Assembly (NCBI GenBank): GCA_009841165.1
Contig: VXMI01000067.1
Location: forward strand, 1-53,083
DNA: 53,083 bases
Direction: 5' to 3'
Origin: Gemmatimonadota bacterium
GTDB lineage: Bacteria; Gemmatimonadota; Gemmatimonadetes; Longimicrobiales; Gaopeijiaceae
Part shown: one piece after another, positions 9,129-31,048 of the stretch
Layout: each line of letters starts with the position of its first letter
Position numbering within the stretch: position 1 is the stretch's first letter
Made by a program: the position numbers and the translations under genes
The notes under the pieces: model-generated
Database searches by the model: none
What the model was told of the DNA's origin: nothing
The model's input: the letters and a program-made list of their open reading frames with translations, nothing else

Positions 9129-9443
9129 ATGAAGACGATCAAGACGACGGTGTATCTGAACGCCTCGGACTACCGCAGGCTGAAATCGCTGGCAGCCGAT
9201 GAGGGGCGGTCGGCGGCGGAACTGGTGCGCGAGGCAGTTGCGCAGTACGCAGCGCGGGCGACGGAGCGTGAGTGGCCGAGGTCCATTGGTATCGCGGACA
9301 GTGGCGACCCGCACTTCGCCGAGAACTACGAGGACTACCTGGATGGTTTCGGCGAAGAGGGCCTGGAAGACTATTTCGCGAGCCTCGAGTCCGATAGTGC
9401 CCGCGAAGACTCCGTGCGGAGGCCTCATGGATTGTCGGAGTAG
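9129..9443 (+). CDS. Ribbon-helix-helix (CopG/VapB-like) antitoxin
   Basis: A 104-residue antitoxin. The N-terminal RHH fold is clear: strand KTIKTTVYLNASDYRRLKSL (residues 2-21), then the two helices ending ELVREAVAQYAAR (about 30-43). The C-terminal acidic half (ENYEDYLDGFGEEGLEDYF) is the expected toxin-neutralising region. It lies 9 bp upstream of the PIN toxin and just downstream of a three-half-site operator. Repression of its own promoter, alone or with the toxin, is therefore likely. Confidence 0.88.
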   Translation: MKTIKTTVYLNASDYRRLKSLAADEGRSAAELVREAVAQYAARATEREWPRSIGIADSGDPHFAENYEDYLDGFGEEGLEDYFASLESDSAREDSVRRPHGLSE

Positions 9444-9452
9444 CCGGCTTCG

Positions 9453-9866
9453 GTGATCGTTGCGGACACCGGCGCGATTCTCGCGCTCATGGATGTCAGG
9501 AACCCGCACCACCCACCGCTCCGATCGGCGTTGGGCTTGCATCGGGACGAGTGGGTAATCCCCTGGGCCGTGCTTCCCGAGTTGGACTACCTGGCGGTAA
9601 AGCGCCTGGGACATACCGCCGCCCGCGTCCTGCGGGCCGACCTGGCGGCAGGCCGCTACCTCGTCGAGTGGGGCGAGCCGGCTGATCTGCACAGGGCACT
9701 CGAACTTGATCGCACCTATCGCGACCTCTCGCTCGGCCTGGTCGACGGCATCGTCATGGCTGTAGCGGAGCGGCTTGAGGCGCGGGCGATCGTAACGCTC
9801 GACTTGCGGGACTTTGGGGCGGTCACACTGAAAGGGCAGCCGCACCTCTGGCCGCGGGATTTGTAG
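9453..9866 (+). CDS. vapC: PIN-domain ribonuclease toxin (VapC-like)
   Basis: A 137-residue PIN domain that covers the entire protein. The acidic metal-binding residues are in place: Asp5 (VADTGAILALMD), a Glu in WAVLPELDYLA (about residue 43), Asp98 or so in LSLGLVDGIVMA, and Asp near 116 in IVTLDLRDFG. It is expected to cleave a tRNA or other RNA when freed from the antitoxin. The start is GTG at 9453, giving 9 bp between the genes and so a single transcript. All catalytic acids are retained, so it is probably active. Confidence 0.9.
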   Translation: MIVADTGAILALMDVRNPHHPPLRSALGLHRDEWVIPWAVLPELDYLAVKRLGHTAARVLRADLAAGRYLVEWGEPADLHRALELDRTYRDLSLGLVDGIVMAVAERLEARAIVTLDLRDFGAVTLKGQPHLWPRDL

Positions 9867-12680: not shown

Positions 12681-12844
12681 TCCCGGTCAAGTCCGCCGGC
12701 GGTCGCTCGTCGGCTTCATCCGTTGCGCGGCTGGAAACCCGCCTTCATCCTGCCTAGTATGGTCCGGGTGCTCGAACTCCAACGAACAGAGCCGCCCGAT
12801 TGTCGTTTTGACTGAACGCAACCCACTTCCGCAGGACGTGACGA

Positions 12845-14905
12845 ATGACCCTGAACGCGACTGTGCAACACCTGTCCTCCCTCCGCATCCGAGGTGCAGC
12901 GCTGCTCCTCGGTGCCGCTTCGCTCGCCATGCTGACCGGTTGTGCAACGCAATCGACCGGCAGCCCCGACATGGTTGCCGATCTGGCACCCCAGGCACCG
13001 GCTACCTTCGCCAACCCCGCCGGCCTTCACGTCAACCCGCCCACCCCCGACCCGCGCGTCGGCCTGGCGCCCGGACTCTTCGACGCGGGCGAGGCGATCT
13101 GGAACATGCGCATGCTGTCGACCACGCCGCCCGAGGAGCCGTTCGTGGGACAGACCAACTCCGACCTGGCCTTCACGGGCAACTATGCCATCCAGGGCAA
13201 CTATGACGGCATACAGGTCTGGGACATCTCCGACCCCGCGAACCCGGTGTCGGTGATCACCTACGTCTGCCCCGCCTCCCAGAGTGACGTGTCGGTGTAC
13301 GACAACCTGCTCTTCGTCTCCGGCGAAGGGTTTGCCGGACGACTGGACTGCAGCGGCGAAGGCGTGCAGGAGGCCGTCAGCCACCATCGGCTCCGCGGCA
13401 TCCGCATATTCGATATCTCCGACATCGCGAATCCGGAGTACGTCGCCAACGTGCAGACCTGCCGGGGTTCGCACACGCACACCGTGCTCAAGCACCCGGG
13501 CGACGACGACAACGTCTACATCTATGTGTCCGGGTCCGCTCCGGTGCGCCCCGCCGAGGAGCTGGCCGGATGCTCGGGCGGCATGCCCGACGAGGACCCC
13601 AACACCGCGCTCTTCCGGATCGAGGTCATACGGGTGCCGCTGGACAACCCGCAGGCCGCCGCCGTCGTGAGTTCGCCCCGGATCTTCCAGGATCTGGTGG
13701 CGCCGCCCAGGCACGGACCCGGGCCCGCCGACATAGCGGCCGCGGAGCAGGCGCGTGAGCAGGCCCTTGCAACAGGTGGTTTCGTGATCGAGATCCAGGG
13801 AGAGGTGCAAGTCCTTCCCGATCAGTTCGTCACGCCGATGCTCGACAGCATCGTTGCCGCACGAGGAGGCGAAGGCCCTCCCACCGCCGCCGACAGCACC
13901 GCGTTGCGCGAGTACGTCGACGAGATGGTTGCGCAGATGATGGGCGCGGCCGGCGGCGGCGACGGTCCGGCACCGGGGCCGACCCAGTGCCACGACATCA
14001 CGGTCTACCCTGCGATCGGTCTGGCGGGTGGGGCCTGCGTCGGCTATGGGCTCCTTCTCGATATCACCGACCCCGTCAACCCGACGCGTCTCCAGGCGGT
14101 GGCCGACTCCAACTTCGCAATATGGCACTCGGCTACCTTCAACAACGACGGCACCGCGATCCTGTTCACCGACGAATGGGGTGGTGGTGGCGCGCCGAAG
14201 TGTCGCGCCGACGACCCGGTGGAATGGGGCGCCAACGCGATCTTCACCATCGAAGACGGCGAGATGGTCTTCCAGAGCTACTACAAGCTGCCCGCGCCCC
14301 AGACCTCGCTGGAGAACTGTGTCGCCCACAACGGATCGCTCATTCCGATCCCCGGCCGCGACATCATGATCCAGGGCTGGTACCAGGGCGGTATCTCGCT
14401 GATCGACTGGACCGACCCCGCCAATCCGGTCGAGATCGGGTTCCACGACCGTGGCCCGTCGAACGCCACCAGCCAGGGGCCCGGCGGCAGCTGGTCCGTC
14501 TACTGGTACAACGGGGTGATCGTGAACTCGGAGATCGCACGCGGGATGGACATCTTCGAACTCGTACCCAGCGATATCCTCACGCAAAACGAAATCGACG
14601 CGGCGAACTCCGTGGTGCTCACCCAGCTCAACTCGCAGGGCCAGCCCATCTTCGAATGGCCGGCGACCTTTGCGCTGGCTAGGGCGTACCTTGACCAGCT
14701 GGAGCGCTGGCACGGCATGACCGCCCCACAGATCGCTTCGGCGCGCGCGGCGCTGGCTGCGGCCGAGGGCGCATCGGGATCGGCACGGCGCGATGGGCTT
14801 CGGTCCCTGGCCGCCACGCTGGACGGGCAGTCAGCCGGCGCGAGCGACCCCGCCAAGGTCGCGACACTGATTGACGCGGTTCAGCGACTGGCCGACGCCG
14901 GATAG
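12845..14905 (+). CDS. LVIVD-repeat beta-propeller lipoprotein, copy 1
   Basis: A 686-residue lipoprotein: signal peptide with lipobox LTGC (Cys33). The blades contain LVIVD-type repeats such as YDGIQVWDISDPANPVSV, RGIRIFDISDIANPEYV, GYGLLLDITDPVNPTRL and GGISLIDWTDPANPVEI. Conserved His/Cys clusters stand out (CRGSHTHTV, PTQCHDITV, SNFAIWHSATF, GAPKCR), suggesting bound metal or disulfides. The C-terminal ~130 residues form an alpha-helical Ala-rich module (RAYLDQLERWHGMTAPQI). AGGA lies 8 bases before the ATG. Its near-twin is at 15746-17797 with a DUF305 gene between, so the three form one operon. Function unknown; probably surface-exposed. Confidence 0.85.
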   Translation: MTLNATVQHLSSLRIRGAALLLGAASLAMLTGCATQSTGSPDMVADLAPQAPATFANPAGLHVNPPTPDPRVGLAPGLFDAGEAIWNMRMLSTTPPEEPFVGQTNSDLAFTGNYAIQGNYDGIQVWDISDPANPVSVITYVCPASQSDVSVYDNLLFVSGEGFAGRLDCSGEGVQEAVSHHRLRGIRIFDISDIANPEYVANVQTCRGSHTHTVLKHPGDDDNVYIYVSGSAPVRPAEELAGCSGGMPDEDPNTALFRIEVIRVPLDNPQAAAVVSSPRIFQDLVAPPRHGPGPADIAAAEQAREQALATGGFVIEIQGEVQVLPDQFVTPMLDSIVAARGGEGPPTAADSTALREYVDEMVAQMMGAAGGGDGPAPGPTQCHDITVYPAIGLAGGACVGYGLLLDITDPVNPTRLQAVADSNFAIWHSATFNNDGTAILFTDEWGGGGAPKCRADDPVEWGANAIFTIEDGEMVFQSYYKLPAPQTSLENCVAHNGSLIPIPGRDIMIQGWYQGGISLIDWTDPANPVEIGFHDRGPSNATSQGPGGSWSVYWYNGVIVNSEIARGMDIFELVPSDILTQNEIDAANSVVLTQLNSQGQPIFEWPATFALARAYLDQLERWHGMTAPQIASARAALAAAEGASGSARRDGLRSLAATLDGQSAGASDPAKVATLIDAVQRLADAG

Positions 14906-14918
14906 GAGCATGGTGCAC

Positions 14919-15698
14919 ATGAAGAGCAGACAGGATGCCCAACCGGTCGCCCAGCCCGGCCGACCCTGGTCGCCCCTCATCGTCCTGATCCTGGCGGGTT
15001 CCTTGCAGGCGTGTGCCACGGGACCGGGCACCTCTCCCGGATCCCCGACGCCGGCCGGTGCCGTTGCGACCACCGCCCCCGCAGCCGAGCCGGACCCTCC
15101 CCCGACCCGTCCCGACGCCGCCAGGATCGCGGAACTCGAGGCCATCTATGAACAGCGAGCCGAAGAGGTGCTGCGGAACTACCACGAAGGCGATGTCCAC
15201 TTCATGACCGGGATGATCGGGCACCACGCACAGGCACTGCTGATGTGCAGTTTCGCGCCCGGCAACGACGCCAGCGCCAACATGCAGACGCTTTGCGAAC
15301 GGATCATCAGTTCGCAGCAGGACGAGATCGACCTGATGCAACGATGGTTGCGTGATCGCCGCCTTGAGGTTCCCGAGGTCCACGTCGCCGATGGCGAACT
15401 GATGATCCACGGACCCGAACACGCGCACCACATGCCCGGAATGCTGTCCCCGGAGCAGGTGGACGACCTGCGCAGCGCTCGCGGACAGGACTTCGACCGA
15501 CTCTTCCTCGTGTACATGATCCAGCACCACGAGGGTGCGGTGACCATGGTGGACGACCTGTTCGCCACCGATGGCGCCGCGCAGGGTGACGACCTGATCT
15601 TCAGGCTCGCTTCAGATATTCAGGCCGACCAGACCTCCGAGATAAGACGCATGGAATTGATGCTGGAGGCGATGACCCCGGGTGGGTCCAACGGCTGA
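14919..15698 (+). CDS. DUF305-domain lipoprotein
   Basis: A 259-residue exported protein with a hydrophobic leader ending LQACATG, consistent with lipidation. A Pro/Thr/Ala linker (to about residue 65) is followed by a complete DUF305 four-helix module with both signature motifs, FMTGMIGHHAQALLMC and YMIQHHEGAVTMV, plus a His-rich HGPEHAHHMPGM insert. The DUF305 family includes the cyanobacterial copper-binding protein CopM, so a periplasmic metal-binding role is possible but inferred. ATG 14919 is chosen because GGAG lies ten bases upstream; GTG 14913 and ATG 14910 are alternatives. It sits between two LVIVD paralogues, 13 bp after the first. Confidence 0.87.
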   Translation: MKSRQDAQPVAQPGRPWSPLIVLILAGSLQACATGPGTSPGSPTPAGAVATTAPAAEPDPPPTRPDAARIAELEAIYEQRAEEVLRNYHEGDVHFMTGMIGHHAQALLMCSFAPGNDASANMQTLCERIISSQQDEIDLMQRWLRDRRLEVPEVHVADGELMIHGPEHAHHMPGMLSPEQVDDLRSARGQDFDRLFLVYMIQHHEGAVTMVDDLFATDGAAQGDDLIFRLASDIQADQTSEIRRMELMLEAMTPGGSNG

Positions 15699-15745
15699 CA
15701 GGAGATACTCCGACGGCATCCCACACTGTTTCAGGAAGAAGTCAA

Positions 15746-17797
15746 ATGACGCCGACCGACGCTGCGAACGACCGTTCGCCAACCCTCCTTCGCCTTGCGG
15801 CGCTCCTTCCCGTGGCCACCCTGCTGGCCATGCTCCCGGGGTGCGCTTCCCAACCCATGCCGCGCGCCGCTGCCGCGCCTTCGCAGGAGGAGGCCGCACA
15901 AGCCACCTTCGCGAATCCCCCCGGCCTGATGGTCAACGCGCCCGATCCCGACCCCCGCGTCGGGCTTGGGCCCGGACTCTTCGACGCGGAAGAGGCCATC
16001 TGGAACATGCGCATGCTGTCGACCACGCCTCCGGAGCCCCCGTTCGTCGGCTCGACCAACTCGGACCTGGCCTTCACCGGCGACTACGCCATTCAGGGCA
16101 ACTACGACGGCATCCAGGTCTGGGACATCTCCGACCCGCGCAATCCGGTGTCGGTGATCACCTACCTCTGTCCGGCCTCCCAGAGCGACGTGTCCATCTA
16201 CAACCACCTGATGTTCGTTTCCGGTGAGGGACTCGGGGGAAGGCTGGACTGCGGTGATGAGGGAATCCCGGAGGCGGTGAGCCACGACCGGCTGCGCGGA
16301 ATCCGCATCTTCGACATCTCCGACATCGCGAATCCCGAATACGTGGCCAATGTGCAGACCTGCAGGGGCTCGCACACCCACACGGTCCTCAAGCACCCGG
16401 GGGACGACGACAACGTCTACATCTACGTGTCCGGTTCCGCTGGGGTGCGTCCGCCCGAGGAGCTCGCCGGATGCTCGGGCCTTTCGCCCGACGAAGATCC
16501 CAGTTCCGCCCTCTTCCGGATCGAGGTCATTCGCGTTCCGCTCGACGACCCGCAGTCGGCGGAGATCGCGAGTTCACCGCGGATCTTCCAGGACCTGGTT
16601 GCGCCGCCCAGGCACGGCTTGTCGCCGGCGGACTACGAAGAGCTCGACGCCGCGCGGGCAAGAGGCGACATCATCGGTTACCGCCGCGGCCAGCCCCGGG
16701 TTCTGCGTGCCCAGCAGGCCCGTGCCATGTTGGACAGCGTCGTCGCCGCGCGCGGAGGTACCGGCGAACCCACCGCTGCTGACCGAGCGGCGCTCCAGGC
16801 AGCTCTGGACGAAGAGGGCCGGCTCCAGGCCGAACAGGCCGCGCAACAGGCCGACGAGCCGCGGCCCGGGCCGACCCAGTGCCACGACATCACCGTCTAT
16901 CCCCACATCGGTCTCGCGGGCGGCGCTTGCGGCGGGTACGGCCTGCTGCTCGACATCACCGACCCGGTGAATCCGAGGCGGCTGGCGGCCGTCGCCGACT
17001 CGAACTTCTCCCTGTGGCACTCGGCCACATTCAACAACGACGGCACCACGGTCATGTTCACCGACGAGTGGGGCGGGGGCGGAGCACCGAAGTGCCGCGC
17101 GTCCGACCCGAAGGAGTGGGGCGCCAACGCGACCTTCAGGATCGAAGACGGCGACATGATCTTCCAGGCCTACTACAAGCTGCCAGCGCCGCAGAGTTCA
17201 TTGGAGAACTGCGTGGCCCACAACGGGTCGCTGATCCCGATCCCGGGGCGCGACATCATGATCCAGGGCTGGTATCAGGGCGGAATCTCGCTGATCGACT
17301 GGACCGACCCGGCCAACCCGGTCGAGATCGGCTTCCACGATCGTGGCCCCTCGGACGGCACACGACAGGGTCCAGGTGGCAGCTGGTCGGTCTACTGGTA
17401 CAACGGCGTGATCGTCAATTCCGAGATTTCACGGGGCCTCGACATCTTCGAACTTGTGCCGAACGAGTCGCTCACACAGAACGAGATCGACGCCGCCAAC
17501 TCCGTCGTACTGACCCAGCTCAATTCGCAGGGCCAGCCGATCTTCGAGTGGCCGGCCACGTTCGCGTTGGCGCGCGCCTACCTCGACCAGCTGGAGCGCT
17601 GGCACGGGATGACGGCGCCGCAGATCGCCCTCGCCCGCGATGCGCTGACGGCAGCCGAGGGTGCGACCGGCGCCCAACGCAGCAGCACGCTGAGCGCGCT
17701 CGCGGAACGGCTCCGGACGCAAGCGAATGGCGCCGCCGATCCGGACAAGGCTGCCAGGCTGGCGGACGCAGTTCAGCGACTGGCGGAGGGAGGCTAG
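15746..17797 (+). CDS. LVIVD-repeat beta-propeller lipoprotein, copy 2
   Basis: A 683-residue paralogue of the gene at 12845, co-linear over almost the whole length. It has a lipobox LPGC (Cys32), the same propeller strands (GIQVWDISDPRNPVSV and others), the same CRGSHTHTV, PTQCHDITV and WHSATFNNDGT motifs, and the same helical C-terminal module. The two copies diverge mainly in the signal peptide and in a central segment of about 90 residues between the segment ending LVAPPRHG and PTQCHD, where this copy is Gln/Glu/Arg-rich. AGGAAG precedes the ATG. The similarity extends to the DNA, indicating a fairly recent tandem duplication around or with the DUF305 gene. Confidence 0.85.
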   Translation: MTPTDAANDRSPTLLRLAALLPVATLLAMLPGCASQPMPRAAAAPSQEEAAQATFANPPGLMVNAPDPDPRVGLGPGLFDAEEAIWNMRMLSTTPPEPPFVGSTNSDLAFTGDYAIQGNYDGIQVWDISDPRNPVSVITYLCPASQSDVSIYNHLMFVSGEGLGGRLDCGDEGIPEAVSHDRLRGIRIFDISDIANPEYVANVQTCRGSHTHTVLKHPGDDDNVYIYVSGSAGVRPPEELAGCSGLSPDEDPSSALFRIEVIRVPLDDPQSAEIASSPRIFQDLVAPPRHGLSPADYEELDAARARGDIIGYRRGQPRVLRAQQARAMLDSVVAARGGTGEPTAADRAALQAALDEEGRLQAEQAAQQADEPRPGPTQCHDITVYPHIGLAGGACGGYGLLLDITDPVNPRRLAAVADSNFSLWHSATFNNDGTTVMFTDEWGGGGAPKCRASDPKEWGANATFRIEDGDMIFQAYYKLPAPQSSLENCVAHNGSLIPIPGRDIMIQGWYQGGISLIDWTDPANPVEIGFHDRGPSDGTRQGPGGSWSVYWYNGVIVNSEISRGLDIFELVPNESLTQNEIDAANSVVLTQLNSQGQPIFEWPATFALARAYLDQLERWHGMTAPQIALARDALTAAEGATGAQRSSTLSALAERLRTQANGAADPDKAARLADAVQRLAEGG

Positions 17798-27537: not shown

Positions 27538-29997
27538 TCAGCTCACGGGCCGCACCCTCTTCTTCAGGATGAACAGTCCCTCCTGCATGCTGGTCACGAT
27601 CACCGTGCCACTGGGGAAATACGGGTAGTTGCTCCACGCGCCGCCGAACCCGGGGCCCTCCTTGTAAGGCGCCGTGTCGAAATACCCCACCTCGCGCGGA
27701 TTCTCCGGGTCGGAGATGTCGAGAACGTGCAGGCCGTAGAGGTAGTTGGCCTGGTACATCAGGTCGTCGCGGATGTAGAGGTTGTGGGCGCTCGCGGGCA
27801 TCGAGCCCATGAATTCCCTGACCAGCACGGGATCCTCGAGGTCACTCACGTCCCAGATCAGGGTGCGCGTGGTCTCGGCGTTGCCGGCGATGACGTCGGC
27901 CTCGTCGTCCTGGTAGAAGTAACGGTGGTCTTCAGTGAGCCAGCCCTGGTGGATGTACGCCGGGTTGGGCGAGGACGGGGCCGCCACTTCGACCGGGTTG
28001 TCCTTGTCGGTGACGTCCTGGATCTGGAAGGTGCGGCCGTTCGAATTGAAGCACAGTTCCCGTCCCTGGTAGTCCTCGTCGGGACCCCGGTAGATGACGC
28101 ACTGGGTGTCGTGGGTGCCGCCGGTGGGGGCGCAGCCGACGAACTCGGGGTTTTTGGGATCGTCGATGTCGATCATGTGGAGGCCGCCGCCGCAGGTGTC
28201 GCCTGCGCCTCCGCCCCCGATGGTGTACGCGATCCCGGTCTCCTCGTTGATCGCGATGTTGTGCGAGCTGCCGATGCGGGTGTAGTGGAAGTCGGGCTCG
28301 AAGAGCGCGGGCATCTCGTCGACGGAGATGTCGCGGAGGCGGGTGAGGTCGAAGACCTGCATGCCGTGCTCGCCCGCGCCGTCGGCGACGACGAAGGCGT
28401 GGTCCTTGTACGTCTTGATGTCGCGCCAGAGCTGCGACGGCGGGGTGCCCCACGGCTTGGGCAGGTCGCCGACCAGCATGGGGTTGGTGGGATCGGTGAT
28501 GTCGACGAACGACGTGCCGTCGTTGCGGCCGACCAGCGCGTATTCGCGCCCGGTCATGGGGTCGGTCCAGCCCCAGTTGTCGTTGGCGCGCACGCCGCGG
28601 GCGCGCTCCTCGGCCCGCAGGAGCGAGGGTGGCACGTATGCCAGCAGTTCGACCTCGTCGCAATCGAAGGGGCCGACCTTCCCCTCGATGCACCGGCGCT
28701 CCTCGCCCACCAGGGCTGCGAGCATGTCGGGCGCGCTCACGAGCATCTCCGCTTCCCCCCAGCCGCCATCACCGCGTTCAAACACATGGACCGAGCCGGC
28801 CTGGTGGTGCATCCCGGGCGCGCCGACCGCCACCACACCCGCGCTGGCCACGATCAGGCCGCCGAACCGGTCGCTCTCGACCGTCTCCTCCTGGGCAAGC
28901 TGGATGCGGCGCGCCTCGGCGGGCAGCGATCCGTCTGCCGCGGCCTCGAATAGGAAGGCCGAGCCGAGTTCGTAGCCGCGCGTGGTGGGGGCGCCCACCC
29001 AGACATCGTCGCCGGCCAGGGCCACGGCCTCGCCGAAGCGGTCACCGCTCTCGCCGCCCGAGAACGCGAGCCGGCCCTCGGCGGGGACCCACCGGGCGAG
29101 GTCGGCACTCCATGAATGCGTGTAGACCGCGCCACGGCTGTCGTCCGTTCCCGGCGCCCCGATCAGGACCCTGTCCCCCGCAGCCGCCAGGGCCGACCCG
29201 AAGTTGGCATTCGATTCGGCGGCCGATTCGAGGACGCCGCCCTCAACCCAACCCCCGTCAACCATGCGGTAATGATAGACGCGGCCGGCCCGTTCGCCAT
29301 CGTCGCCGCCCGCGTTCCACTGGGGAGCACCGATCAGGGCGCCGTGGGGGGTGAACTGGATCGCGGCGCCGAAACGGTCTCCTTCTGCCCCGTCCGCGGG
29401 TTGAAGCTGCCCGCGCCGGGTCCACTGGCCGTCGGCGTTGCGCTGGTAGGTGTAGACGGCCCCCTGTGGCTCGGCCTCTTGCTCGCCGCCACGGCGGCGG
29501 GGGGCGGGAGCGGCTCCGGGCGCGCCCACGAACAGCCAATCCTCGTGCGCGGCGATGGTCACGCCGAAGTCGTTGCCGCAGTAGCCGTCGTAGCGGCACG
29601 ATGGGGATGCGCCGGCGATGTCGTCACCCTCGATCGTGCCGGTGGCCGCCCACGGGCCGCCGTCCGTGCGCTCGAAGACGTGGATCGGACCGCCGCGTTG
29701 GCCGATGAAAAGGGTGTTGCCCGTCCTGGCGAGCATGGTGCCGAAGCCGTCCGCGCGCTCGGAATCGGGGGCGCGGAGCACAGTGGACTGGCGCCATCCG
29801 CCGCCGGCATTCGCGTAGATGTACACGGATCCGGGTCGGAAGCTGGTCGTCGGCTCGGCGATCAGGAGTTCGTCGCCGTCGATGATCACGGATTTGCCGA
29901 AGGAGCCGGACTGCGCGGCGAGCGGCGGAGCGGCCCAGGCGAGGGCGGCGAGAGAGGAGAGGGCGGCGAGAAAGGCGATGGTCGGCTTGCGAATCAT
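27538..29997 (-). CDS. Choice-of-anchor B family protein with FG-GAP/integrin-like N-terminal propeller
   Basis: An 819-residue secreted protein. After a signal peptide (FLAALSSLAALAWAAPPLAAQ) come FG-GAP-like repeats (GDRVLIGAPGTDDSRGAVYTHSW, GDDVWVGAPTTRGYELGSAFLF) to about residue 410. The choice-of-anchor B region then follows, with LVIVD-type units: GTSFVDITDPTNPMLVGDL, GLHMIDIDDPKNPEFVGC, GLHVLDISDPENPREVGYF. Conserved markers are SHNIAINEETG, HDTQCVIYRGPDEDY and PYFPSGTVIVTSMQEGLFILK. This family is surface-associated with unknown activity. ATG 29997 is chosen for the signal peptide. It is last in a same-strand run with the hydrolase and amidohydrolase genes. Confidence 0.87.
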   Translation of the reverse strand: MIRKPTIAFLAALSSLAALAWAAPPLAAQSGSFGKSVIIDGDELLIAEPTTSFRPGSVYIYANAGGGWRQSTVLRAPDSERADGFGTMLARTGNTLFIGQRGGPIHVFERTDGGPWAATGTIEGDDIAGASPSCRYDGYCGNDFGVTIAAHEDWLFVGAPGAAPAPRRRGGEQEAEPQGAVYTYQRNADGQWTRRGQLQPADGAEGDRFGAAIQFTPHGALIGAPQWNAGGDDGERAGRVYHYRMVDGGWVEGGVLESAAESNANFGSALAAAGDRVLIGAPGTDDSRGAVYTHSWSADLARWVPAEGRLAFSGGESGDRFGEAVALAGDDVWVGAPTTRGYELGSAFLFEAAADGSLPAEARRIQLAQEETVESDRFGGLIVASAGVVAVGAPGMHHQAGSVHVFERGDGGWGEAEMLVSAPDMLAALVGEERRCIEGKVGPFDCDEVELLAYVPPSLLRAEERARGVRANDNWGWTDPMTGREYALVGRNDGTSFVDITDPTNPMLVGDLPKPWGTPPSQLWRDIKTYKDHAFVVADGAGEHGMQVFDLTRLRDISVDEMPALFEPDFHYTRIGSSHNIAINEETGIAYTIGGGGAGDTCGGGLHMIDIDDPKNPEFVGCAPTGGTHDTQCVIYRGPDEDYQGRELCFNSNGRTFQIQDVTDKDNPVEVAAPSSPNPAYIHQGWLTEDHRYFYQDDEADVIAGNAETTRTLIWDVSDLEDPVLVREFMGSMPASAHNLYIRDDLMYQANYLYGLHVLDISDPENPREVGYFDTAPYKEGPGFGGAWSNYPYFPSGTVIVTSMQEGLFILKKRVRPVS

Positions 29998-30067
29998 GGT
30001 GCGTTTCCGGTGTTGCGTATGAGCGGGGTTGCGTGCCTGTCGGTGTGTCGAGGTCAGCGGGAGCATG

Positions 30068-31048
30068 TCAGCGTGCGAGGATTTCGGCGGCGCGCGGGGC
30101 CATGAGCGCATTGCTGTGGCCGGCGCCGGGGACGGTGTCAAGGGCCCAGCCGAAGGGGACGCCGAGTAACTCGGCAGCCGACCGGGCGGTGGCATGGAAT
30201 GTATGGCCGCGGGTGAAGCGGTGGGGTCCCTGAAGCATGGCCTCGGGAGTCCTGCGCAGGTTGCTGGCGGTGGTCACCGTGTCGGCGTCGCCCAGCAGCA
30301 CCGTGACGGGGAGTTGCAGGAACTCGGCGAGCCCGGCGACCTCGAAACCCGAGCCGCCCAGGCCGTAGGGCCATGCCGTGTCGTTGTCGGGCAGGGTGTA
30401 CCATCCGGCGTTGGCGGCGACGGCCCGTTCGACCGGCGCGTCCGGACGGGTCATCAGGAGGCGGTGGACGAACTGGCTGCCGGCGGAGTGGCCGAAGATG
30501 CGGAAAGTCGTGCGGGAGCTGCCCGCGGCGGTGCGGACGGCGTCGAAGAGGTGCTCGATCGCGGTGAAGGTCCAGGCGGACTCGGGGTTGTGGTTGGCGT
30601 TGGCTGCGCCCGAGCCGGCGTTGGCGTCCACGTCGAGCGGATAAGAGTCCGGGTCCGGGAAAACGTTGCCCAGGTTGTACCATCGGCTGCCTGGGTAGTT
30701 GTCGTCGTCGAACTCGGGTACGACGAGGAGGAAGCCGTGCGCGATGGCGTGTGGTTCCCAGTCGTTGAAGTAGCGCTGACCGGTTCGGGACGCACCGTGC
30801 ATCACGAAGACGATGGGCGTCTCGGGCGTGTGGCCCTCGGGCATGTGGTAGCGCACAGTGATCGGACGGTCGGCGTTGCCGCGGGAGTCGTGGAAGGTAA
30901 ATTGGCCGGAGCCTTGATGGAGAGCGGGGACACCAGGCGCGGCCTCGGCGGCCGGATTCGTGGCGCGACCATCCTCCTCACCGGCTCCGCCGCAGGCCAT
31001 CGCCAGGATTAGCGCCGCCACAATGGCCAGGCTGCGCCGCTCTTTCAT
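30068..31048 (-). CDS. Secreted alpha/beta hydrolase (feruloyl esterase/PHB depolymerase-like)
   Basis: A 326-residue lipoprotein (lipobox LAMACG) with an alpha/beta hydrolase domain. The nucleophile elbow is GHSAGS (about residue 190), the acid is in LLGDADTVT, and the His in PGAGHSNAL. The oxyanion region is FVMHGASRTG. The spacing matches the LpqC/PHB-depolymerase-like esterase group, so an extracellular ester or depolymerase substrate is likely. GAGGAG eight bases upstream fixes ATG 31048. It lies 36 bp after the TolB-amidohydrolase stop and 70 bp before the anchor-B gene start, so the three probably form one operon. Confidence 0.82.
   Translation of the reverse strand: MKERRSLAIVAALILAMACGGAGEEDGRATNPAAEAAPGVPALHQGSGQFTFHDSRGNADRPITVRYHMPEGHTPETPIVFVMHGASRTGQRYFNDWEPHAIAHGFLLVVPEFDDDNYPGSRWYNLGNVFPDPDSYPLDVDANAGSGAANANHNPESAWTFTAIEHLFDAVRTAAGSSRTTFRIFGHSAGSQFVHRLLMTRPDAPVERAVAANAGWYTLPDNDTAWPYGLGGSGFEVAGLAEFLQLPVTVLLGDADTVTTASNLRRTPEAMLQGPHRFTRGHTFHATARSAAELLGVPFGWALDTVPGAGHSNALMAPRAAEILAR

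Follow-up and report, generated by a model that had tools for sequence, protein, structure and literature searches.

To our knowledge, the function of DUF305 proteins is understood mainly from CopM of Synechocystis. According to the excerpted account of that system, CopM binds Cu(I), lowers cell copper, is partly extracellular, and is encoded in an operon with a two-component system (PMC4335983), and a CopM peptide containing the MxxHH motif is described, likewise in an excerpt, as binding Cu(II) (PMC11836926). Copper has been connected with propellers as well: as given in part of the source, SELENBP1 is modelled as a seven-bladed propeller whose cavity His, Asp and Glu residues are needed for its copper-dependent thiol oxidase activity (PMC10362175). 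The two kinds of protein meet in Starkeya novella, where a passing mention in an excerpted source places Snov_0990 (DUF305) and Snov_0991 (YVTN propeller) 12 bp apart, probably under one promoter; this promoter is activated by an extracytoplasmic function (ECF) sigma factor, and Snov_0991 is high on tetrathionate (PMC6527743). Here, we analyze positions 12845-17797 of contig VXMI01000067.1 from a Gemmatimonadota bacterium (GCA_009841165.1), where two propeller genes, A and B, bracket a DUF305 gene, D, all on the forward strand, and we describe how the two gene families recur as a pair in several bacterial phyla. Throughout, "the window" denotes the whole stretch of DNA that was analyzed (53,083 nucleotides).

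Gene layout and resemblance to CopM

Propeller A, the upstream copy (12845..14905, +; 686 aa), stops 4 bp before the first ATG of D (14910..15698, +; ATG at 14910, alternative start ATG at 14919), which in turn stops 47 bp ahead of the ATG of propeller B, the downstream copy (15746..17797, +; 683 aa). Judged by this spacing, the three genes may form an operon read as a single transcript. Each of the three open reading frames (ORFs) starts with a lipobox-like leader, with the lipobox-like Cys at residue 33 in both propellers. A and B are identical at 75% of their aligned bases (1538/2049) and at 77% on the protein level, and the motifs SHTHTV, TQCHDITV, WHSATF and APKC are each present in both. 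The original prediction, which had described co-linear twin lipoproteins of ~685 residues, closely alike in DNA, tightly spaced around a DUF305 gene and both keeping these motifs, is thus borne out by the alignments. The source genome (96.6% complete, 239 contigs) contains one DUF305 gene, the one at this locus, and six further matches to B, all of at most 42 bits.

The assignment of D draws on Pfam, Foldseek and motif conservation. D matches the DUF305 profile (PF03713) from position 1 to 151 of 151 at 131.6 bits, against a gathering cut-off of 27, and carries two MxxHH motifs, M102-H105-H106 and M203-H206-H207 (numbered from the ATG at 14910). Among the DUF305 proteins that are paired with propellers, the first motif is kept in 129/129 and the second in 128/128 distinct rows with letters there. 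Foldseek matches the model of the DUF305 protein (predicted local distance difference test, pLDDT, 85.2) to solved DUF305 proteins and to CopM crystal forms with Cu(I), Cu(II) and Ag; a weak resemblance to Dps and ferritins was also found, the match to CopM being the stronger one. The DUF305 family was rightly said beforehand to include a copper-binding member, which is CopM (PMC4335983, in excerpt), and D keeps the CopM-type motifs, together with the DUF305 fold and signs of export. It differs from CopM in being paired with propellers rather than with a two-component system, and its score against the CopM family metallochaperone model (NF049983), 76.3 bits, is under the cut-off of 90.

Propeller and DUF305 genes as a conserved pair

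The genome_contigs collection, which holds one genome per species for 84,980 species, was scanned with propeller peptides only, yielding 64 named loci. A DUF305 gene adjoins the propeller gene or genes in 54 of these, with a largest domain gap of 311 bp; in eight of the ten others, the propeller lies at a contig edge, and in the last two (L094 and L095) it is flanked and DUF305 is absent. Writing D for DUF305 and P for propeller, the arrangements comprise D-P (20 loci), P-D-P (13), D-P-P (6) and further tandems of as many as four propellers; in these tallies, a few propeller genes that are split enter as two ORFs each. At three actinomycete loci in this set, DUF305 is on the opposite strand. 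A propeller ORF stands on both sides of DUF305 at 21/64 loci, so the bracketed order of the window does recur; with the plain D-P order and other tandems also common, however, the twin bracketing is lineage-specific and not the essential unit.

The pair is also found beyond Gemmatimonadota. Among sampled actinomycete class members, 89/296 have a propeller homolog at E-values up to 1e-50. DUF305 lies within 1.5 kb at 27 of the best 30 actinomycete loci, and it stands beside the propeller in 36 of 38 longer stretches (23 at the same places, 13 chosen by hand from further down the list, and two taken from a record of Nonomuraea). The two genes are oriented divergently, convergently or co-directionally there, with a largest domain gap of 923 bp. 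Because the pair is kept through these changes of orientation, we argue that its members are functionally linked. Sampled genomes of Bacteroidota (26/148) and Balneolota (57/296) match the propeller too, and DUF305 is directly upstream on the same strand at 56 of 60 loci from these groups, with gaps up to 318 bp. Counted by handle and place, because two sets overlap, these loci amount to 45 distinct places, 42 of them with DUF305. Of the remaining three, one is the latter propeller of a D-P-P arrangement, one is the later piece of a gene that a contig end interrupts, and one is a second propeller with a flank too short to reach past the first. Wherever DUF305 was found, its domain gap to the propeller is below 1 kb, and none of the four ORF sets scanned contained a fused DUF305-propeller protein.

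Co-occurrence was assessed in 196 genomes, the window's own included. A propeller homolog (E-value up to 1e-40) is present in 165 and DUF305 in 162; 159 genomes have both, 28 neither, 6 only the propeller and 3 only DUF305 (Fisher p 8e-25, uncorrected for relatedness). The propeller-only genomes (G013, G019, G042, G059, G065 and G102) include three that are 75-78% complete and two in 370-400 contigs. Of those with only DUF305 (G121, G148 and G172), G172 has an E-value of 2.8e-4 and is presumably the one match below the Pfam cut-off.

An all-against-all comparison of neighboring genes at 41 actinomycete and 60 Gemmatimonadota/Bacteroidota loci revealed no third partner comparable to D and P, although this relied on a home-made gene caller that caught DUF305 itself at 29/41 and 41/60 loci and possibly missed other neighbors. 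The next most shared families occur at 8/41 actinomycete and 23/60 Gemmatimonadota/Bacteroidota loci. That Gemmatimonadota loci share some flanking genes too, at up to 23/60 loci, is what would be seen if the two genes hitch-hiked together by common descent, with no functional need for one another. The actinomycete pair, however, persists through changes of orientation and order, and the genome-by-genome correlation of the two families speaks strongly against such hitch-hiking, which we hold to be extremely improbable. The observations support a conserved two-gene module whose members are functionally linked. In other words, the idea of two propellers complexed around a shared DUF305 protein stands as far as the functional link between the partners is concerned, and falls where it makes the twin the unit.

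Several records deserve comment. Split propeller genes (two frames or a stop) at 8660-10956 of L057 and 5800-7857 of L082 may be pseudogenes or sequencing errors in metagenome assemblies. Five loci (L040, L054, L063, L066 and L068) come from records whose titles give Gammaproteobacteria or the BD2-11 clade, with a listing under Pseudomonadota; these genomes are probably mislabelled, their propellers lying among Gemmatimonadota copies in the tree. The Nonomuraea record, NZ_LT559118.1 (L133, L134), is listed as a plasmid and, at 11.85 Mb, is probably a chromosome. It is the one record matched in a plasmid collection, bears no annotation in it, and contains at least two loci that pair DUF305 with a propeller, one of which has a further propeller in tandem.

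Family membership and fold of the propellers

The propellers were originally labelled as LVIVD proteins. The relationship implied by this label holds, whereas the LVIVD match itself (PF08309) is marginal: A scores 20.2 bits, exactly the Pfam gathering cut-off of 20.2, and B 16.1, below it, with 50/54 members of our family alignment matching at E-values up to 0.1. Scores against choice_anch_B (TIGR04312), a family with LVIVD repeats, are 56.9 bits for A and 60.2 for B, both under the NCBIfam cut-off of 100. The source genome encodes eight proteins that exceed this cut-off, and profile comparison with these (hhalign probability 98.9%) shows homology. D148, H425, the AHN at H492 and W547-S548 (B numbering) align between the two groups; SHTH is offset by a single column, and the HD and DE motifs do not align, with similar words nearby. 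Part of the candidate site discussed below thus probably predates the pairing with DUF305. Besides their sub-threshold scores, the propellers studied here differ from choice_anch_B proteins in their own insertion, their C-terminal helices and their DUF305 partner, which the eight proteins cannot all have, because the single DUF305 gene of the genome is the one between A and B. On these sequence comparisons, a separate family related to choice_anch_B is a better description than LVIVD.

An AlphaFold2 model of B, built from the 54-sequence alignment, has a pLDDT of 88.4 and a predicted template modelling score (pTM) of 0.86. Its strand list (DSSP) reads as seven blades, followed by a helical C-terminal part from about residue 578, and solved WD40-type propellers superpose on it at Z about 30 (VIA-align). 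The best Foldseek match is the Sphingobium phosphotriesterase 5hrm (E-value 6.7e-12), a propeller that we take to have a two-metal center and three disulfides; it is absent from the 50 VIA-align rows listed, which excludes nothing. 5hrm and 5ioj are also the only PDB sequences matched by the family profile at E-values up to 0.01. These matches open another explanation, in which a metal other than copper is used: the propeller would be a hydrolase with a two-metal center (Mn, Zn or Fe), resembling the phosphotriesterase, and DUF305 would assist it as a metal-binding protein of a general or ferritin-like kind, as its weak resemblance to Dps and ferritins would allow. The likeness to 5hrm, however, is slight: the best stretch of the profile match covers 34 residues, with a whole-sequence E-value of 0.0007, and the superposition gives template modelling (TM) scores of 0.42/0.56. 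Together with the stronger match of DUF305 to CopM, this makes a non-copper hydrolase improbable in our view.

Like SELENBP1 and the methanethiol oxidases (SBP56), the propellers are predicted to be seven-bladed, with His, Asp and Glu at the cavity; a copper-chaperone gene lies beside bacterial mtoX. Membership of that family was nevertheless rejected, as SBP56 (PF05694) is not among the 10 Pfam families matched by any of the 54 members at E-values up to 0.1.

Conserved residues and a candidate metal site

Conservation was examined in a pool of 215 propeller rows (197 distinct) from three groups, Gemmatimonadota, Bacteroidota/Balneolota and Actinomycetota, counting distinct rows with a letter at the position. 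In B numbering, the following are invariant: D148 and H210 (189/189 each); H380 and D381 (192/192 each); H425, D440 and E441 (193/193 each); H492 (192/192) and W547 (191/191). In the window, the motifs that carry them lie on the forward strand at 16373..16381 (H210-T-H212 in SHTHTV, of which H212 is variable), 16883..16888 (H380-D381 in CHDITV), 17018..17020 (H425 in WHSATF), 17063..17068 (D440-E441 in FTDEW) and 17219..17221 (H492 in AHNG). Six Cys residues are invariant as well, C142 and C169 in 189/189 and C379, C395, C450 and C489 in 192/192 rows each.

When the blades are lined up by eye, D107, D148, H212, D381, H425, H492 and S548 fall at the inner-strand start of blades 1 to 7, respectively. 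In propellers, the inner-strand start faces the central channel. Because the His, Asp and Glu residues map to inner-strand starts of one propeller, we consider them candidate metal ligands of a site that is likelier to lie inside each propeller than at an interface. The Cys residues, on the other hand, look like structural disulfides rather than metal ligands, with C142/C169, C379/C395 and C450/C489 (the APKC motif included) as the presumed pairs. The proposal that the His/Cys clusters bind metal is therefore kept for the His residues, joined by Asp and Glu, and dropped for Cys.

This conservation also bears on a simpler account, namely a copper sequestration or resistance module without catalysis, in which free copper would be reduced through binding by DUF305 as well as by the propeller at the surface. 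CopM would be the precedent, as it binds Cu(I) and lowers cell copper (PMC4335983, in excerpt), and the MxxHH motifs kept in the paired DUF305 rows are in keeping with it. Yet no neighbor beyond D and P is widely shared, so that a conserved pump or oxidase partner is missing (neighbors were not individually annotated), and the near-absolute conservation of His, Asp and Glu in the propeller core would exceed what sequestration usually needs. We therefore regard pure sequestration as unlikely.

Age and divergence of the propeller twin

One circumstance named beforehand as undoing the proposal was an arrangement confined to this contig and flanked by signs of assembly duplication. In a quick maximum-likelihood tree of 99 propellers (supports from the Shimodaira-Hasegawa-like approximate likelihood-ratio test, SH-aLRT, only), A joins eight other upstream copies with support 93, and B belongs to an 11-row group (support 100) that consists of 10 downstream copies and one copy from a contig edge. 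At synonymous sites, A and B differ by 0.55 in the window and by 0.45-0.58 across eight genomes, the window's included, and the lowest value in any 60-codon block of the window is 0.36, leaving no near-identical block. Ratios of nonsynonymous to synonymous substitution (dN/dS) against orthologs in seven other genomes are 0.06-0.22 for A, 0.12-0.27 for D and 0.10-0.16 for B. Because the clades are position-specific, and given the synonymous divergence and dN/dS values, the duplication is older than these species, with A, D and B all maintained under purifying selection. Assembly duplication and recent copying were rejected on the same grounds, the two propellers being old paralogs that group by position across species.

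Divergence between A and B is concentrated in two places, as first noted: 35/79 aligned residues differ at the N-terminus and 46/84 in residues 288-372 of B, against 1/41 in the inner strands. Mapped on the predicted structure, the central segment of B (16607..16861, +) is a mostly helical insertion between blades 3 and 4 (DSSP of the model), with 0/85 positions invariant in the 54 sequences; its counterpart in A, about residues 288-375, lies at 13706..13969 (+). This insertion is shorter in three actinomycete members (37-47 residues) than in most others of the 54-sequence alignment (84-121). Comparing 9 upstream with 10 downstream orthologs, and allowing at most one exception per side, we found 25 paralog-fixed positions, of which 12 are in the insertion, 4 in BC loops, 3 in DA loops, 3 in the C-terminal part, 2 in CD loops, 1 at the N-terminus and none in strands. 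Specialization of A and B is a reasonable reading of this pattern, part of which relaxed constraint could also give.

The gathering of paralog differences in one insertion, the WD40-like seven-bladed fold and the lipoprotein-like leaders of A, B and D could also be those of a scaffold or receptor, that is, of surface binding propellers with a structural polar core, DUF305 as a complex subunit, and duplicates that bind different ligands. Set against this, ionizable residues that are conserved across phyla at equivalent inner-strand positions look like a site, and we consider a scaffold decidedly unlikely, more so than either sequestration or a non-copper hydrolase.

Other features of the locus and window

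No RNA element was matched in Rfam, and no sigma-70-type promoter was found; the sole terminator-like site is on the minus strand, and chance expectation is higher. A 665-codon open frame antisense to propeller A (12716-14713, -) is most likely a by-product of high G+C content. Elsewhere in the window, two small adjoining ORFs at 9129-9866 (+) resemble, by eye, a ribbon-helix-helix antitoxin and a PIN-domain toxin, and a choice_anch_B protein related to the propellers, which has FG-GAP repeats and gives an LVIVD signal, is encoded at 27538-30195 (-).

Discussion

The explanation that we tentatively favor is that of an exported propeller, most likely a metalloenzyme, with a CopM-like DUF305 partner, the A-D-B locus being one arrangement of this wider module. 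The propeller would be a metal-dependent enzyme (oxidoreductase or hydrolase), possibly acting on sulfur compounds, whose metal would sit in the central cavity with inner-strand His and Asp/Glu as ligands. At the cell surface or in the periplasm, the MxxHH motifs of DUF305 would take up copper, and the protein would load, buffer or protect the metal site of the propeller. We infer copper as the metal, catalysis, metal transfer and physical contact between the two proteins; DUF305 as metal donor or guard of a propeller metalloenzyme is favored because CopM, the MxxHH peptide, SELENBP1 and the Starkeya pair point the same way when taken together. The Starkeya genes adjoin as they do here, a likeness drawn from their gene descriptions in a source that mentions them in passing (PMC6527743, in excerpt). 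In this lineage, the propeller was duplicated. Because A and B have retained a common core and diverged in the insertion that separates blades 3 and 4, their substrates or partners probably differ, with a single DUF305 protein serving both.

Several observations weigh against this reading. A divergent Gemmatimonadetes clade, formed by L094, L095 and L097 (the last at a contig edge), has no adjacent DUF305, nor have two actinomycete stretches (L139 and L140). DUF305 occurs in 5/14 control genomes, none of which has a choice_anch_B signal, so there is no universal tie; two other control genomes show such a signal, below its cut-off. At the candidate site, H212 is His in 180/189 rows and replaced in 9/45 actinomycete rows, D107 is Asp in 184/188 (Asn in 4) and S548 is Ser in 187/191 (Ala in 4), and the clustering of the His and Asp residues is deduced from strand positions of a predicted model. 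The fold alone points to no enzyme, as the VIA-align rows shown are scaffold-type WD40 proteins; the superposition on 5hrm is weak (root-mean-square deviation 9, 11% identity), and SBP56 is not matched. Finally, our own lipobox pattern, in a scan that relied on guessed start codons, matched 35/54 propellers, the 19 missed including Bacteroidota/Balneolota and actinomycete rows; export of all propellers is likely, while lipid anchoring does not appear general on this pattern.

The divergent clade without adjacent DUF305 offers an obvious comparison for the role of the propeller by itself.

While the fold types and DUF305 are already known, a literature search, with most subscription papers outside it, found no description of a propeller-DUF305 module, which suggests that the pairing is undescribed. 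Many of the Gemmatimonadota carriers presumably come from sponge metagenomes, judging by isolate names. More guardedly than for the locus itself, we consider it possible that exported propeller metalloenzymes form a widespread and undescribed family in Gemmatimonadota, Bacteroidota/Balneolota and Actinomycetota, with a copper-binding DUF305 protein as their dedicated partner, and that tandem duplication allows a single metal donor to serve several propellers, each specific for its own substrate. With a partner gene conserved across phyla, the role of many DUF305 proteins can be framed as a concrete hypothesis, and the conserved residues define a set for mutation. The results indicate a common, uncharacterized family of exported proteins in Gemmatimonadota and actinomycetes, and as some of the actinomycete carriers are cultured strains (Ornithinimicrobium, L099 and L101), the idea is testable there.

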